Below are positions 13,454-17,709 of a stretch of 42,227 nt of DNA, one piece after another. Positions within the stretch are counted from its first letter, which is position 1, and every line of letters starts with the position of its first letter. The notes below the pieces were generated by a model, which searched no databases, had not been told where the DNA came from, and was given only the letters and a program-made list of their open reading frames with translations. This DNA comes from a bacterium (lineage in GTDB: Bacteria; Patescibacteriota; Saccharimonadia; Saccharimonadales; UBA4665): assembly GCA_021850365.1 (NCBI GenBank), contig JAJZMH010000033.1:1-42227 (forward strand). The letters are read 5' to 3'. The position numbers and the translations under genes were made by a program.

Positions 13454-14878
13454 ATGAATAAAGCTAATAATATTGATCGGTTAATGGGAAGTGAATCTGA
13501 ACTTGCAATTAATTTATTTGCTAATGATGAAGAACAAGGAGTGAAGACCATTGTTAATTTGGTCATAAATAATTTAGATCTTAGAATTACAGTTTTTGAA
13601 AATAACAATATTGATGCTGATTACTATTTATCTACTGGGGGAAGAATATATCCAGACAGTGAATTACTTGAAACTTGCTCTCCTGAATCTCTTGGTCCTG
13701 AGGAAGCAACATATACTGAAATGGTATCTAAAAGAATTGTCTTAGATGCATTATCTAGACTATGCCAAGATAAAAGTTATAAATTTGATTTATTCGACCG
13801 AGTAATTGATCAACAATCGAATACCTGGGGTTATCACAATAACTATTTAATAGAAAGAGAACACTACGATCCAGGAAATGAGTCAATCGAAAAAGATTTG
13901 TTCATTAATTTAATGTCAAGCCACTTTTTAAGTAGAGTGATCTTTAATGGTGGAGGACTTGTTAAAAAGAATTCTGGTTCCAAAAAGGATTATCATGTTT
14001 TGGCTGGCCAAAAACTTCAAACAGTCTCCACTTATTTTGAAAATGATACTGTTGTTGATAAACCATTATTTAATATTAGAGATAAATCATTGGCGAATTC
14101 TAATAATTGGGCTAGACTACATGACGTTTCTGGAGATTCAAATATCTCTCCATGGGCAACATGGTGGAATAAAGGCAGTACATCACTTCTTATACGACTT
14201 TATGAAAATCATAAAAATAAAGAATATAAAATTCCTTATATAGAGGATCCAGTTAAGGCTGCTCTTTCTTTTGCTAAGGACCCCAGTCTTCCCTTTTACG
14301 TAAACAAACAACAAAAATATAGCGCATTAGATATTCAAGAATGTCTTTATAATCAATGCGCTGCTTTAGCGGTTCAAACAGAACTACCACCTAGTGAACT
14401 TAAAGTTCTTGATGAATGGCAAAAAGCTATAACGGATTACAAAAAAAATCCTTATTTGTTAAGTAATCGTGTAGATTGGATTCTTAAAAAAGAACTTATT
14501 GAACGTAAAAATCTAAATTTCCGCAAAGCCCAAATCCTTGATCTAGAGTTTGGTAGATTGGGAAGTAAGCTAACGGAACTAATTCAAAAAAGAAATGTCT
14601 TTCCCGGATTTGATCCAAATAAATTAACTTCTTATTATTCTCCCCCTACTCAGACAAGAGCGTTTGAAAGAGTATGTCAATTGATAAATATAAGTTCAGA
14701 AGAAGAAAAGATCACAAGCATAAACTGGGATAAGATTAATATAGAAGTAAAAGATATAAATGGAGATGAAAGTTACTCTATCTCGATTTCAATGGATGAT
14801 CCAAATATTATAGACTCAGTTTTTTATGGAAATCATTCAGATGATTATGAATATTGGTCACAAAAAACGACAGTCTAA
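13454..14878 (+). CDS. PafA/Dop superfamily carboxylate-amine ligase or deamidase
   Basis: 474 residues, the length of Pup ligase PafA or depupylase Dop. Landmarks in family order: GSESE (12-16, where PafA has GIETE), GGRIYPDSELLETCSPE (62-78) aligning without gaps to the ARLYVDHAHPEYSSPE region, so Asp68 matches the catalytic Asp and Glu73 the metal-binding Glu. Then WGYHNNYLIER (GCHENYLV in PafA), RLHDVSGDSNIS (RLHVIVGDSNMS), SALDIQE, VDWILKKEL and PPTQTRA. The His and Tyr of HPEY are replaced (Leu71, Thr74). No pup, proteasome or Mpa gene is in the window. Whether it ligates or removes a modifier, and which one, is open. No Shine-Dalgarno sequence precedes the ATG. Confidence 0.85.
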   Translation: MNKANNIDRLMGSESELAINLFANDEEQGVKTIVNLVINNLDLRITVFENNNIDADYYLSTGGRIYPDSELLETCSPESLGPEEATYTEMVSKRIVLDALSRLCQDKSYKFDLFDRVIDQQSNTWGYHNNYLIEREHYDPGNESIEKDLFINLMSSHFLSRVIFNGGGLVKKNSGSKKDYHVLAGQKLQTVSTYFENDTVVDKPLFNIRDKSLANSNNWARLHDVSGDSNISPWATWWNKGSTSLLIRLYENHKNKEYKIPYIEDPVKAALSFAKDPSLPFYVNKQQKYSALDIQECLYNQCAALAVQTELPPSELKVLDEWQKAITDYKKNPYLLSNRVDWILKKELIERKNLNFRKAQILDLEFGRLGSKLTELIQKRNVFPGFDPNKLTSYYSPPTQTRAFERVCQLINISSEEEKITSINWDKINIEVKDINGDESYSISISMDDPNIIDSVFYGNHSDDYEYWSQKTTV

Positions 14879-14883
14879 AGTAA

Positions 14884-14899
14884 TGGTGGCGCCTCCCAG
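14884..14899. repeat. Displaced copy of tRNA-Phe 3' end (attL-like)
   Basis: TGGTGGCGCCTCCCAG is identical to 15962-15977, which is the CCA end, acceptor strand and T-stem strand of tRNA-Phe. It lies 5 bases after the pafA-like stop and marks the far edge of a 1.1-kb insertion carrying the DUF3800 gene. Confidence 0.75.
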
Positions 14900-14989
14900 G
14901 GATTTCTGGAACAAAGTTTTTGAGGTTTTCCAAAACTTGAACGATAAACTCATGAATACCGGTTTTGATGAAACTATTGATTAAAGTAT

Positions 14990-15019
14990 TTGCAATTATT
15001 GTATATAGTCCAGCATAAT
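14990..15019 (+). promoter_or_regulatory. Candidate promoter for a leaderless DUF3800 mRNA
   Basis: TTGCAA (14990-14995), an 18-base spacer and CATAAT (15014-15019). The ATG at 15026 is the seventh base after the -10 element, where transcription would begin, so the message could lack a leader. This fits the absence of a Shine-Dalgarno sequence. Confidence 0.4.
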
Positions 15020-15025
15020 AATTGT

Positions 15026-15754
15026 ATGAATAGGGAACAACAAACTGGGCCAAAACCACAAAGAAACCTTGTTGGTTACTTAGACGAAACAGGTGTATTA
15101 CATAGAAAAGAAGATAAGATATTTGGTCTAGGCATAATATGTTCCCCGAATATTAATAATTTACACAGAAAACTAATAAATTTTAGAAATAGAGCGAATT
15201 TTCATAGCGAATTTAAATTTTCAAAAGTTTCAACGACTAATGTACTTTACTATAAAGGTCTAATAGATGAAGTTTTCGAGAATCCAGAGACAATGTTTAT
15301 CTGCTATGTATATGATAAATTAGAGCTATCCATAAAGAATCACTACAAGGCCTACAATTCATTTTGTGGTAAGTTGATTTCAGATGTTGTGCTGTCCTTT
15401 AATAATAATTTCAGTAATTATATTACTGTATTAGCAGATGATCTATCTACCTCAAAAGATGATCACTTTGAAAGAGAGATTAAAAGTAAGGCTAAACAAA
15501 TTACTAGACGTAATGCCGTGACTAATATTATCCGCCTTGAATCACACGCGGTAACGGAAATTCAAGTATGCGATGTTCTATTAGGAATTATTGCCTATGC
15601 TTTTAAGGTTGAGATGGGCATTATAGATAATCCTAATAAGGCAAAACTGCAACTTGTTAAACATTTGCAAAAGAAGTTGAGAGTTAACTTTATTTCAACT
15701 GACCTTGATAGAAAAGTTAAAGGAGTAAGAATCAAGATAAAAGAGTTCAAATAA
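15026..15754 (+). CDS. DUF3800 family protein
   Basis: 242 residues with the DUF3800 layout: N-terminal GYLDETG (Asp20, Glu21), an EFKFSKVS segment, a central ADD motif and C-terminal VTEIQVCDVLLGII with Asp183, the position of the conserved IQxADxxxG motif. The family is predicted to have an RNase H-like fold and often sits in mobile or defence loci; the function is unproven. A TTG at 14990 would add 12 residues, but ATG 15026 fits the promoter and the conserved N-terminus better. The gene is the only cargo between two copies of the tRNA-Phe 3' end. Confidence 0.78.
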   Translation: MNREQQTGPKPQRNLVGYLDETGVLHRKEDKIFGLGIICSPNINNLHRKLINFRNRANFHSEFKFSKVSTTNVLYYKGLIDEVFENPETMFICYVYDKLELSIKNHYKAYNSFCGKLISDVVLSFNNNFSNYITVLADDLSTSKDDHFEREIKSKAKQITRRNAVTNIIRLESHAVTEIQVCDVLLGIIAYAFKVEMGIIDNPNKAKLQLVKHLQKKLRVNFISTDLDRKVKGVRIKIKEFK

Positions 15755-15961
15755 AAAAGATGGCGCTTTGCACGAATCGGTTAACAAGAACCAGTGCACG
15801 CATTCCATCCAACCATAATTGTATAAAATATTGACATATAAGTCAATAGGTTTTCTTGTATGAATTGGTGGATCATCCCAGTGAAAATTGGATCTTCACA
15901 AAATAATCTTTTAACAGGAATAATTGAGCGTTTCGCACTTAATATACCTAAAATACCTGTT
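15755..15961. other. Non-coding end of the tRNA-Phe insertion
   Basis: About 200 bases between the DUF3800 stop and tRNA-Phe. They contain an inverted repeat ATTGAC...GTCAAT (15830-15847) and no convincing ORF: a rightward frame at 15860 runs straight into the tRNA, and the leftward frame at 15781-15996 also covers it. The repeat could be a protein-binding or excision site. Confidence 0.4.
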
Positions 15962-16037
15962 TGGTGGCGCCTCCCAGACTCGAACTGGGGACACAAGGCT
16001 CTTCAAGCCTCTGCTCTACCAACTGAGCTAAAGCGCC
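15962..16037 (-). tRNA. tRNA-Phe(GAA)
   Basis: Canonical cloverleaf with encoded CCA. Acceptor GGCGCTT/AGGCGCC, D loop with GG, anticodon loop TTGAAGA giving GAA, T loop TTCGAGT. Its last 16 bases are duplicated at 14884-14899, so its 3' end has served as an integration site. It lies 16 bases downstream of tRNA-Val on the same strand. Confidence 0.96.
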
Positions 16038-16053
16038 AAATAGTTTTAAATTA

Positions 16054-16130
16054 TGGTGGGTGATGAGGGACTCGAACCCCCGACCCTCTCGGTGTAAACG
16101 AGATGCTCTAGCCAACTGAGCTAATCACCC
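16054..16130 (-). tRNA. tRNA-Val(UAC)
   Basis: Canonical cloverleaf with encoded CCA. Acceptor GGGTGAT/ATCACCC, anticodon loop TTTACAC giving TAC, T loop TTCGAGT. It is probably co-transcribed with the following tRNA-Phe from the promoter at 16155-16183. Its first 62 bases and 86 bases of upstream DNA are duplicated at 17562-17709. Confidence 0.96.
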
Positions 16131-16216
16131 TTAAATTTTAAAAACTTCCCTAGAATAATAGCATATCTCTTTTTAAAATGTAACAAAATTATTCGCTTAA
16201 TTGAAGAAAACTAATA
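16069..16216. repeat. 148-bp direct repeat, left copy (functional tRNA-Val side)
   Basis: Covers most of tRNA-Val, its promoter and spacer, and matches 17562-17709 with a constant offset of 1493 bases. There are no differences in the 62 tRNA bases and five in the other 86. It stops 2 bases short of where the right copy continues into TATAAT of the tRNA-Leu promoter. Confidence 0.9.
16155..16183 (-). promoter_or_regulatory. Promoter of tRNA-Val / tRNA-Phe
   Basis: On the minus strand TTACAT (16183-16178), a 17-base spacer and TATTAT (16160-16155). The start would fall about 18 bases before the tRNA-Val 5' end. In the duplicated copy the -10 reads TGTTAT, losing the critical second-position A. 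Confidence 0.55.
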
Positions 16217-16333
16217 CCCGACGGAACCAGAGTTAATGAAACCGAAGAACAAATCTTACGGCAACTGGGGCACTAATTTGGTCAAGTCAGGAGACTAAAA
16301 ATATTAACGAGCAAACTTCTCTAGTAGTAAGAA

Positions 16334-16363
16334 TTATCACATTTTATTTATATTCTCTATAAT
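16334..16363 (+). promoter_or_regulatory. Promoter of the small three-gene cassette
   Basis: TTATCA (16334-16339), an 18-base spacer and TATAAT (16358-16363). A strong GGGAGG ribosome-binding site follows at 16387-16392, before the ATG at 16405. Confidence 0.5.
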
Positions 16364-16404
16364 ATATGCTACTGAGTATAGGATAAGGGAGGAAGAAGAG
16401 TAAT

Positions 16405-16665
16405 ATGAGCAATAACGAAATTTTTCAAGAAGGAATAAAACCAGAAACTAATTTAGATAATAACCAACAATTTCTTTCAGTTGGTGAGACTGCTGTTGAA
16501 ATATTCGCTAAATCAATAATTGCGGATAATAGTGTTAAGGCAAATGCTTCATATCCACCACCATTACTACCTCCCGTAAGGCCACTACCATCTCATCCTC
16601 CTACCAATTTGCCAGGTGGCCAAACAGTTCCAGATACCGATTTTACATTGGCTAGATTTTTTTAA
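16405..16665 (+). CDS. Proline-rich small protein; possible RiPP-type precursor
   Basis: 86 residues. The N-terminal 45 are charged and helical, like a leader peptide; residues 50-70 are Pro-rich (YPPPLLPPVRPLPSHPP), then LPGGQ and a tail ending DTDFTLARFF. It has no signal peptide or membrane segment. Its ribosome-binding site is the best in the region, suggesting high expression. It is the first gene of a cassette whose third ORF may be the N-terminus of an ATP-grasp enzyme. Leader plus short core next to a putative modifying enzyme suggests a modified peptide, but I cannot match it to a known precursor family. Confidence 0.65.
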   Translation: MSNNEIFQEGIKPETNLDNNQQFLSVGETAVEIFAKSIIADNSVKANASYPPPLLPPVRPLPSHPPTNLPGGQTVPDTDFTLARFF

Positions 16666-16698
16666 TTTATATTTTAAGAATAATAAAGGTAGGGAATT

Positions 16699-17256
16699 AT
16701 GACGTGTACTTGGTACTTAGTTACAAAAAAGCTTGTTCCGAATTTTCAGGTAAAGTATCCTATCGTAAGAAATGAATTGCTGGCTTTATTTAAAAAAGAC
16801 CAAAGAGATCGTTTAGTTTTGTTTGGTCAAGATCTAGACAATAATAGGTTCCCAAACGAACTTAAGAAACGTGATAGAACACGTTTAAATAAAACATTTA
16901 AATTACTAAAGCAAATAAAATCTCCCAGTGCGATCAATATTGGTTTAGATGGATCTAGGGCAATGTGGATAATTGCACTACATTCGTCCTCAAAACAATC
17001 AAGGGAATTGATGCTTAAGAAAATGCGATATTTATATTATAAAGATAAAAATGAAGTATTCTATCAAGGGATACCTTATCTCGTTGATATGATAATGATT
17101 GAGACTAATGGAAAGCAACGTTACGGAACATATTCGTACAATAATGGTGATGGTAAAGATAGACTATTTCCAATTGTTAATCCCCTAAAAGTAAATGAAC
17201 GTAGAAAAAAATATGATCTATGTCCTCTAGGTACATGTATACATGGAAAGAAATAG
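16699..17256 (+). CDS. DUF6624-like protein
   Basis: 185 residues. The C-terminal 110 match the DUF6624 pattern: IGLDGSRAMWIIALHSS, then YLVDMIMIETNGKQRYGTY, then FPIVNPLKVNERRKKYDL. In the family these are usually an aWlivQHad segment, a LtDRv segment and QlYGTQ. Here QH is LH, DR is DM and YGTQ is YGTY, so conserved polar positions are changed. The family's function is unknown. A good ribosome-binding site (AGGTAGGG) precedes the ATG, 33 bases after the proline-rich gene. The last 14 bases overlap the next ORF, so the three are an operon. Confidence 0.7.
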   Translation: MTCTWYLVTKKLVPNFQVKYPIVRNELLALFKKDQRDRLVLFGQDLDNNRFPNELKKRDRTRLNKTFKLLKQIKSPSAINIGLDGSRAMWIIALHSSSKQSRELMLKKMRYLYYKDKNEVFYQGIPYLVDMIMIETNGKQRYGTYSYNNGDGKDRLFPIVNPLKVNERRKKYDLCPLGTCIHGKK

Positions 17257-17500
17257 TATAAACTCAATTTTTATTGCAACAAGTAGTTTTGAGCAATCTA
17301 CTTGGGAACCTGTAGCCACACACTTACATGAACGTGGTTATGAAACCGTTATATATGAAGCCGATAAAGTAGCCAATGGTATGAAAGATTTTAACAATCT
17401 TACCGTATGCCGAATAAGCAATTTGAACAGCCGTTGCTCCACTCTTAGTTTTGACCCTTCTAATGAACGCCATGTATTATGTTACATGTTAGTGCGATAG
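17243..17500 (+). CDS. Truncated ORF; possible ATP-grasp N-terminal domain
   Basis: 85 residues. The first 50 (IFIATSSFEQSTWEP, HLHERGYETVIYEADKV) look like the Rossmann-like pre-ATP-grasp domain of peptide-modifying ligases or of a glycosyltransferase N-terminus. The last 35 look unrelated and may be out-of-frame sequence. No ATP-grasp catalytic part follows: the frame stops 45 bases before the pseudo-tRNA. It overlaps the DUF6624-like gene by 14 bases. Most likely a gene cut short when the cassette was inserted or rearranged. Assignment is tentative. Confidence 0.45.
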   Translation: MERNSINSIFIATSSFEQSTWEPVATHLHERGYETVIYEADKVANGMKDFNNLTVCRISNLNSRCSTLSFDPSNERHVLCYMLVR

Positions 17501-17545
17501 ATTCGATGAAGATCAATCTGGTAAGAGTCTAAAATCTAGGAAAAG

Positions 17546-17623
17546 TGGTCAAGTCAAGAGAGACTCGAACCCCCGACCCTCTCGGTGTAAACGAGATGCT
17601 CTAGCCAACTGAGCTAATCACCC
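17546..17623 (-). pseudogene. tRNA-Val(UAC) pseudogene
   Basis: The first 62 bases (5' acceptor strand through T loop) are identical to the real tRNA-Val, but the 3' acceptor strand is replaced by unrelated sequence that cannot pair with GGGTGAT, although a terminal ACCA-like end remains. The T stem keeps pairing through an extra G-T wobble. Its promoter -10 is TGTTAT instead of TATTAT. It should not give a working tRNA. Confidence 0.85.
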
Positions 17624-17709
17624 TTAAATTTTAAAAACGTCTCTAGAATAACAGCATATCTATTTTTAAAATGTAACAAAATTATTCGCTGAATTGAAGA
17701 AAACTAATA
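17562..17709. repeat. 148-bp direct repeat, right copy
   Basis: Second copy of 16069-16216. It runs directly into TATAAT of the tRNA-Leu promoter, so the ancestral arrangement was probably tRNA-Val and tRNA-Leu back to back with one shared spacer. The cassette now lies between the copies. Confidence 0.9.

Follow-up and report, generated by a model that had tools for sequence, protein, structure and literature searches.

A DUF3800 gene and its convergent structured RNA in a 1.08-kb unit bounded by tRNA-Phe 3' ends in a Saccharimonadales genome

The window, a 42,227-nt stretch of contig JAJZMH010000033.1 (assembly GCA_021850365.1), contains a DUF3800 gene between a tRNA-Phe gene and a second copy of the 3' end of that tRNA, which raises the question of how so small a segment came to lie there and what it carries. 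The initial annotation read it as an insertion at the tRNA-Phe 3' end, without an integrase, that carried only a DUF3800 gene. Positions 14884 to 15961 are probably an integrase-less, CIME-like tRNA-end unit with a DUF3800 nuclease-ncRNA module, the recombinase acting in trans or having since been lost. The features of the locus are listed below.

14884-14899, minus strand: distal copy of the tRNA-Phe 3' end, CTGGGAGGCGCCACCA, the far boundary of the unit
14900-14989: left flank inside the unit, not conserved in homologs (upstream regions compared)
14990-15025, plus strand: leaderless promoter with the paired palindromes CAATTATTG and TAATAATTG (candidate operator)
15026-15754, plus strand: DUF3800 protein, 242 aa, RNase HII-like predicted fold (PF12686; PADLOC PDC-M04A)
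15753-15811, minus strand: convergent structured ncRNA, a 17-pair hairpin with its T run at the DUF3800 stop codon
15818-15846, minus strand: sigma-70-like ncRNA promoter, TTGACT-17-TACAAT, 10/12
15847-15961: right flank inside the unit, not conserved, containing a 13/16 match to the tRNA end (15866-15881)
15962-16037, minus strand: tRNA-Phe(GAA), the integration site, whose 3'-terminal 16 bp (15962-15977) form the near boundary

The boundary repeats were observed directly. CTGGGAGGCGCCACCA comprises the last 16 bases of tRNA-Phe, and its exact recurrence at 14884-14899, claimed in the initial annotation, was confirmed as the unique second copy in the genome, in the same orientation and on the 3' side of the tRNA, 1078 bp downstream. 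With up to 3 mismatches allowed, three matches to the 16-mer were found in the window against 0.03 expected, the third being the weak one at 15866-15881 (3 mismatches), within the unit at a distance of 96 bp from the tRNA end; when up to 2 mismatches were allowed, the 653-kb genome yielded no copy beyond the two exact ones. Repeat identity ends sharply at 16 bp, with GAGT preceding the tRNA copy and ATCC preceding the distal copy, and the largest direct repeat obtained from shuffled 500-bp flanks of the tRNA-Phe locus was 12 bp. The GC content was 0.323 in the unit versus 0.333 in its surroundings. CIMEs are defined as flanked by attL and attR and devoid of integration or transfer genes (PMC5704250). 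Here, the exact 16-bp repeat provides the direct repeats of the target gene end, and the unit contains a DUF3800 gene and an ncRNA with no integration or transfer genes, including no integrase, as had been noted. The description of the DUF3800 gene as the sole content holds for proteins, but it overlooked the convergent structured RNA on the minus strand at 15753-15811.

The tRNA genes are packed in the order Leu(gag)-Val-Phe-Gly in both same-genus genomes and several relatives. The gap between tRNA-Phe and tRNA-Gly is 5 and 8 bp in the two same-genus genomes versus 4.8 kb in the window; both carry one copy of the 16-mer and lack the DUF3800 gene, which supports the proposed insertion at the tRNA-Phe 3' end without an integrase. 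Members of the family differ in how far apart the same array tRNAs stand, from a few bases to about 15 kb. The array as a whole is a hotspot of insertion, with the DUF3800 unit among several inserts. A strict empty site, with 14883 joined to tRNA-Phe and a single 16-mer directly followed by TTACTTTAGACTG, was found in none of the close relatives, because these relatives also lack the adjoining Pup-ligase and ABC genes.

The Pup-ligase/Dop-like protein at 13454-14878 of the window (PF03136, E 3e-54) stops 5 bp before the tRNA-Phe copy. Its homologs are divergent and patchy in the class (37/393 genomes), with one close to the tRNA array in genome G051, and no close empty site with a Pup-ligase gene abutting tRNA-Phe was found. 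On the other side, tRNA-Val is duplicated (16054-17624), with a complete copy at 16054-16130 and a copy with a broken acceptor end at 17550-17624. The duplication spans 157 bp, is 95% identical, includes the promoter and comes with 1.3 kb of extra sequence, in which three ORFs were recognized, one DUF6624-like, one short with a GGQTVPD motif and one truncated, the last resembling by eye the ATP-grasp protein of the cassette array in genome G101 described below. Statements on the window's own genome rest on genome searches and individual stretches; within 1.5 kb of 30 other tRNA loci of this genome, no further tRNA-end units were detected.

Copies of tRNA ends were also surveyed elsewhere. Among about 86 loci searched with the last 10 tRNA bases, copies were found downstream on the same strand 10 times, upstream never and on the opposite strand 3 times. 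Most of the ten downstream copies belong to short palindromic repeats 138-180 bp away that hold no cargo and may have arisen differently, and therefore the count of 10 alone is no proof of cargo insertion. Such units of 138-180 bp, composed of a terminator, a palindromic block and a tRNA 3'-end copy, stand behind tRNA-Phe, Gly, Val and Leu (L106, L107, L109, L110, L160, L189, L199, L201 and L207) and resemble the E. coli RtT repeat in size. The distal 16-mer in the window might accordingly be an older tRNA-end repeat of this RtT-like or hairpin type, with the cassette entering between the copies later by unrelated means. In its favor, the tRNA-Phe 3' end of four other genomes from three genera is repeated 169-180 bp downstream without cargo, with a terminator and a palindromic block in between, similar units stand behind tRNA-Gly, tRNA-Val and tRNA-Leu, and the window has the 13/16 match at 96 bp. 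However, the same-genus genomes have neither copy nor hairpin, the window copy lacks the palindromic block, and the DUF3800 cassette is again flanked by tRNA-end repeats at tRNA-Glu in another genus, which makes this origin unlikely.

Homologous or microhomology-driven recombination following DNA uptake, with the tRNAs of the conserved array supplying the homology and no site-specific recombinase involved, is likewise judged improbable. The variable spacing of the array tRNAs in the family and the neighboring tRNA-Val insert, whose 157-bp duplication with promoter is unlike an att repeat, are consistent with it, but the 16-bp repeat of the DUF3800 unit is sharp and stops exactly at CCA, tRNA-end copies occur on one side only, and a serine-recombinase element of the same genome has a repeat of equal length and position.

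The ORF at 15026-15754 scored 33.7 bits with PF12686 against a cut-off of 21 and belongs to DUF3800. No relatives of solved structure were found by sequence, only by a fold search with the AlphaFold2 model (mean pLDDT 89), in which RNase HII structures were the top PDB matches (1eke, E 1e-6, TM about 0.5); the relation is therefore one at the level of the fold. Invariant acidic residues in the clade include D20-E21 (in YLDETG), D138-D139, E172 and D183, and D20-E21 are reminiscent of the DE motif of RNase HII. The PADLOC profile PDC-M04A (E 5e-24), which that database classes only among candidate defense proteins, covers most of the sequence, and the window unit has no partner gene. By its modeled fold, the protein is a predicted RNase HII-like nuclease. 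The leaderless promoter suggested initially is plausible, with TTGCAA-18-CATAAT placed 6 nt 5' of the ATG and overlapping a palindrome pair conserved in homologs. In 9 of 10 homologs, two exact CAATWATTG palindromes 22-23 bp apart cover the -35 and -10 of the leaderless promoter, and in the window one palindrome is exact and the other carries a single change.

An opposite-strand hairpin of ~55 nt was present behind the DUF3800 gene in all of the first eight homologs compared, each time with -35 and -10 boxes of the TTGAC(A/T) and TATAAT types, and with a T run beside the DUF3800 stop codon. A covariance model applied to 393 genomes of the class retrieved 8 ncRNA copies, 8/8 convergent behind a DUF3800 homolog, and a profile search of the same genomes retrieved 8 strong DUF3800 homologs (E below 1e-90) in the same 8 genomes. 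Five further genomes of the 393 have only weak, different DUF3800 proteins, and the ncRNA is absent at those loci. Altogether, the ncRNA lies behind 11/11 examined members of this DUF3800 clade; the eleventh copy, from a Collierbacteria record (L125 6001-6440), is still intact while the DUF3800 gene ahead of it is broken. In the alignment of the 11 sequences, fitted to the covariance model, the 17 pairs have 100% standard cells and 7 pairs are changed on both sides, against 23-51% pairing in slid controls; a MAFFT alignment of 8 ncRNAs gave 97.8% paired cells and likewise 7 two-sided pairs. These comparisons show the RNA structure and its linkage to the gene. A scan of the window and of locus L120 against Rfam 15 up to E 10 returned no DUF3800 motif and only chance-level hits far below the cut-off. 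The ncRNA was predicted to pair with the start of the DUF3800 mRNA no better than with mid-gene controls.

With operator palindromes, gene and convergent RNA recurring in the homologs, the module therefore consists of a candidate operator, a predicted nuclease gene and a convergent RNA with its own promoter. It is probably defense or toxin-antitoxin-like. The nuclease gene would be kept tightly repressed and the RNA strongly expressed; the RNA may bind the protein as an inhibitor, licence or guide, and the pair could be a selfish or defensive module of toxin-antitoxin or anti-phage type.

The presence of the cassette is observed to be patchy. A DUF3800 match was found in 6/93 family genomes, 5 of them strong and spread over five genera, and the closest homolog, about 75% identical, is located in another genus (G093). 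Rarity (5/93 strong) and absence from the same genus, together with ~75% identity in another genus, therefore point to horizontal transfer. The relatives in the clade come from Candidatus Saccharibacteria or plain 'bacterium' records and one Collierbacteria record, with no match on phages, plasmids or viral contigs; from these records the host was taken as a Saccharibacterium. As to neighbors, a RadC/UPF0758-type gene is directly upstream of the cassette in two genomes (L122 5327-5971, L123 5251-5913), and proteasome/Ntn hydrolase-like proteins adjoin DUF3800 in two genomes (L121 5211-5816, L124 5142-5940), with weak Pfam support in L124 only; a similar protein is found in the G101 cassette array (L270 6330-7001).

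The same cargo was found at another tRNA, and other cargo with the same ends. In G093, the DUF3800-RNA cassette lies between two copies of the 15-bp repeat TACTTATGGTGACCC, the TGGTGACCC part of which is the 3' end of the neighboring tRNA-Glu, and a second unit with the same ends, a Phd/ParE pair, lies between the inner repeat copy and tRNA-Glu. Units with the same ends and different cargo, proposed initially as a search, are therefore at hand in this Phd/ParE unit and in tRNA-Glu-end cassettes of sister genomes. On contig 7 of G101, at least eleven tRNA-Glu-end sites separate cassettes of 0.6-2.4 kb behind a serine recombinase abutting tRNA-Glu; in the arrays of G083, G094 and G097, no recombinase was found in the stretches read. 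A 1089-bp single-gene unit with tRNA-Gly ends was found in G067. Among eight DUF3800 cassettes compared, flanking repeats above chance were present in two (15 and 16 bp) and in none of the other six, and therefore the cassette is not always in a tRNA-end unit.

The sites in the cassette arrays (L270, which is G101 contig 7, 1559-19077; L271, L272, L273, L274 and L102) end in ...AGGGTCACCA, the tRNA-Glu end. The single-gene cassettes carry toxin-antitoxin pairs, NUDIX and SRPBCC proteins, and an ATP-grasp protein with a possible peptide precursor. The site arms code for a conserved short peptide, VTL..IYK.IA.EIIRWN, to which the left arm of the window unit (VAPPRDFWNKVFEVFQNLNDKLM...) was not similar above shuffles.

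That the DUF3800-ncRNA cassette is itself a transposon, with an RNase H-fold nuclease, a guide-like RNA and the 15-16-bp repeats as target-site duplications, is very improbable: the predicted RNase H-type fold with a DE motif and the location at different places in 10 genomes, with 15 and 16-bp flanking repeats in two, would suit it, but the stretch from cassette to repeat is of different length and content in each of these two, terminal inverted repeats were not observed, flanking repeats above chance were absent at the six other loci tested, and unrelated cargo of the same size with tRNA-end repeats at the same tRNA was already seen at tRNA-Glu.

Three large serine recombinases are encoded in the window's own genome, each abutting or overlapping the 3' end of a tRNA gene, namely, tRNA-Gln(ttg), tRNA-Met and tRNA-Gln(ctg), in the following elements.

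L288 2688-13441: serine-recombinase element at tRNA-Gln
L289 7475-12149: serine-recombinase element at tRNA-Met
L290 7079-11916: serine-recombinase element at tRNA-Gln

The tRNA-Gln(ttg) recombinase heads a 10.7-kb element with a TraG-like ATPase, and the far end of this element is a 15/16 copy of the tRNA-Gln end, of the same length and position as the repeat in the window. The tRNA-Met recombinase has neighbors in common with the head of the G101 array: over 127 aa, one of these proteins is 75% identical, and the recombinases are 29% identical. No recombinase was found at tRNA-Phe in this genome, and so we infer the enzyme for the window unit. Both PF00589 hits in the genome are on other contigs, and no integron IntI-type integrase lies beside the array; a tyrosine integrase, of which one truncated copy lies on contig 23, may also have been the enzyme. 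At L113 (G000 contig 23) 33-4177, tRNA-Gly is accompanied by an ORF as large as about 1060 aa, and the truncated tyrosine integrase is found where the contig ends. A LOOT RNA (Rfam RF03000) is located at L109 13575-13691, near a serine recombinase abutting tRNA-Gly. For a conserved protein beside the recombinases, identity as a small terminase found no support in Pfam and one weak PHROGs hit.

For the CIME-like unit, the course of events would be as follows. A recombinase, by analogy a serine recombinase, would recombine the tRNA-Phe end with an att site containing CTGGGAGGCGCCACCA, so that tRNA-Phe stays complete and the displaced end comes to lie at 14884; two boundaries that are both tRNA 3'-end copies would be expected from such site-specific recombination. 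The likeliest enzymes are large serine recombinases of the kind found at tRNA 3' ends in the lineage, and the unit would be a remnant or passenger, its enzyme acting in trans or lost since. The unit may still be mobile today. Against the CIME-like reading stand the left arm, which is unlike the arms of the tRNA-Glu arrays, the lack of a strict empty site among the close relatives and of a recombinase at tRNA-Phe, the many tRNA-end copies that are short hairpin repeats, and the six cassettes with no flanking repeats above chance.

Mobility of this kind is already known. In the ssrA islands of Dehalococcoides, the tmRNA end is repeated over 20 bp and a CcrB-like recombinase is present, and fifteen islands without an integration module were termed possible CIMEs (PMC3146451). 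Shared with these islands and with CIMEs are tandem units bounded by tRNA or tmRNA 3' ends, many without an integration module, and a serine recombinase on sister elements; unlike the Dehalococcoides islands, the units described here, known from sequence, measure about 1 kb, hold a single module and occur in Saccharibacteria at several different tRNAs. In Methylophilaceae, copies of the terminal 20 bp of tRNA-Lys mark an additive flexible island, and tycheposons are described as elements of 4-200 kb that encode a tyrosine recombinase and are bordered by a tRNA (PMC10872708). Like the window unit, both have their cargo at the 3' ends of tRNAs, where copies of the tRNA end mark it, but in contrast to tycheposons the unit is 1.08 kb long and recombinase-free, thus lacking the tyrosine recombinase that characterizes them, and in this genome serine recombinases sit at other tRNAs.

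The RNA partner is new. DUF3800-associated RNA motifs in Rfam include DUF3800-I, DUF3800-IX and others (PMC11701678), which similarly are structured RNAs adjoining a DUF3800 gene; compared by the Rfam scan, the present RNA differs in having no Rfam 15 match to E 10, a convergent orientation and its own promoter. For DUF3800, a published survey reported an RNase H fold and an association with ncRNAs, and it covers Cas12 + TPR-DUF3800 systems (PMC10910872). The window module shares with the latter the predicted RNase H-type nuclease fold and ncRNA linkage, whereas it has no Cas or TPR gene and its 242-aa protein stands alone. Novel features are the RNA family, its strict association with a single DUF3800 clade and a unit of minimal size.

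CPR genomes are tiny, and their routes of gene gain are poorly known. In this lineage, single-module units would dock at tRNA 3' ends, and one and the same genome has serine recombinases at several of its tRNAs. A bolder reading, offered tentatively, is an integron-like system of Saccharibacteria in which tRNA 3' ends are cassette sites for tRNA-directed large serine recombinases acting partly in trans, combined with a DUF3800-RNA ribonucleoprotein defense module. The link of DUF3800 to RNAs was noted before without being explained, and the pair found here is compact, one 242-aa protein and one strongly covarying ~55-nt RNA. If this reading is true, one recurrent cassette would be a previously undescribed ribonucleoprotein, in which the ~55-nt RNA would bind, license or guide the nuclease.
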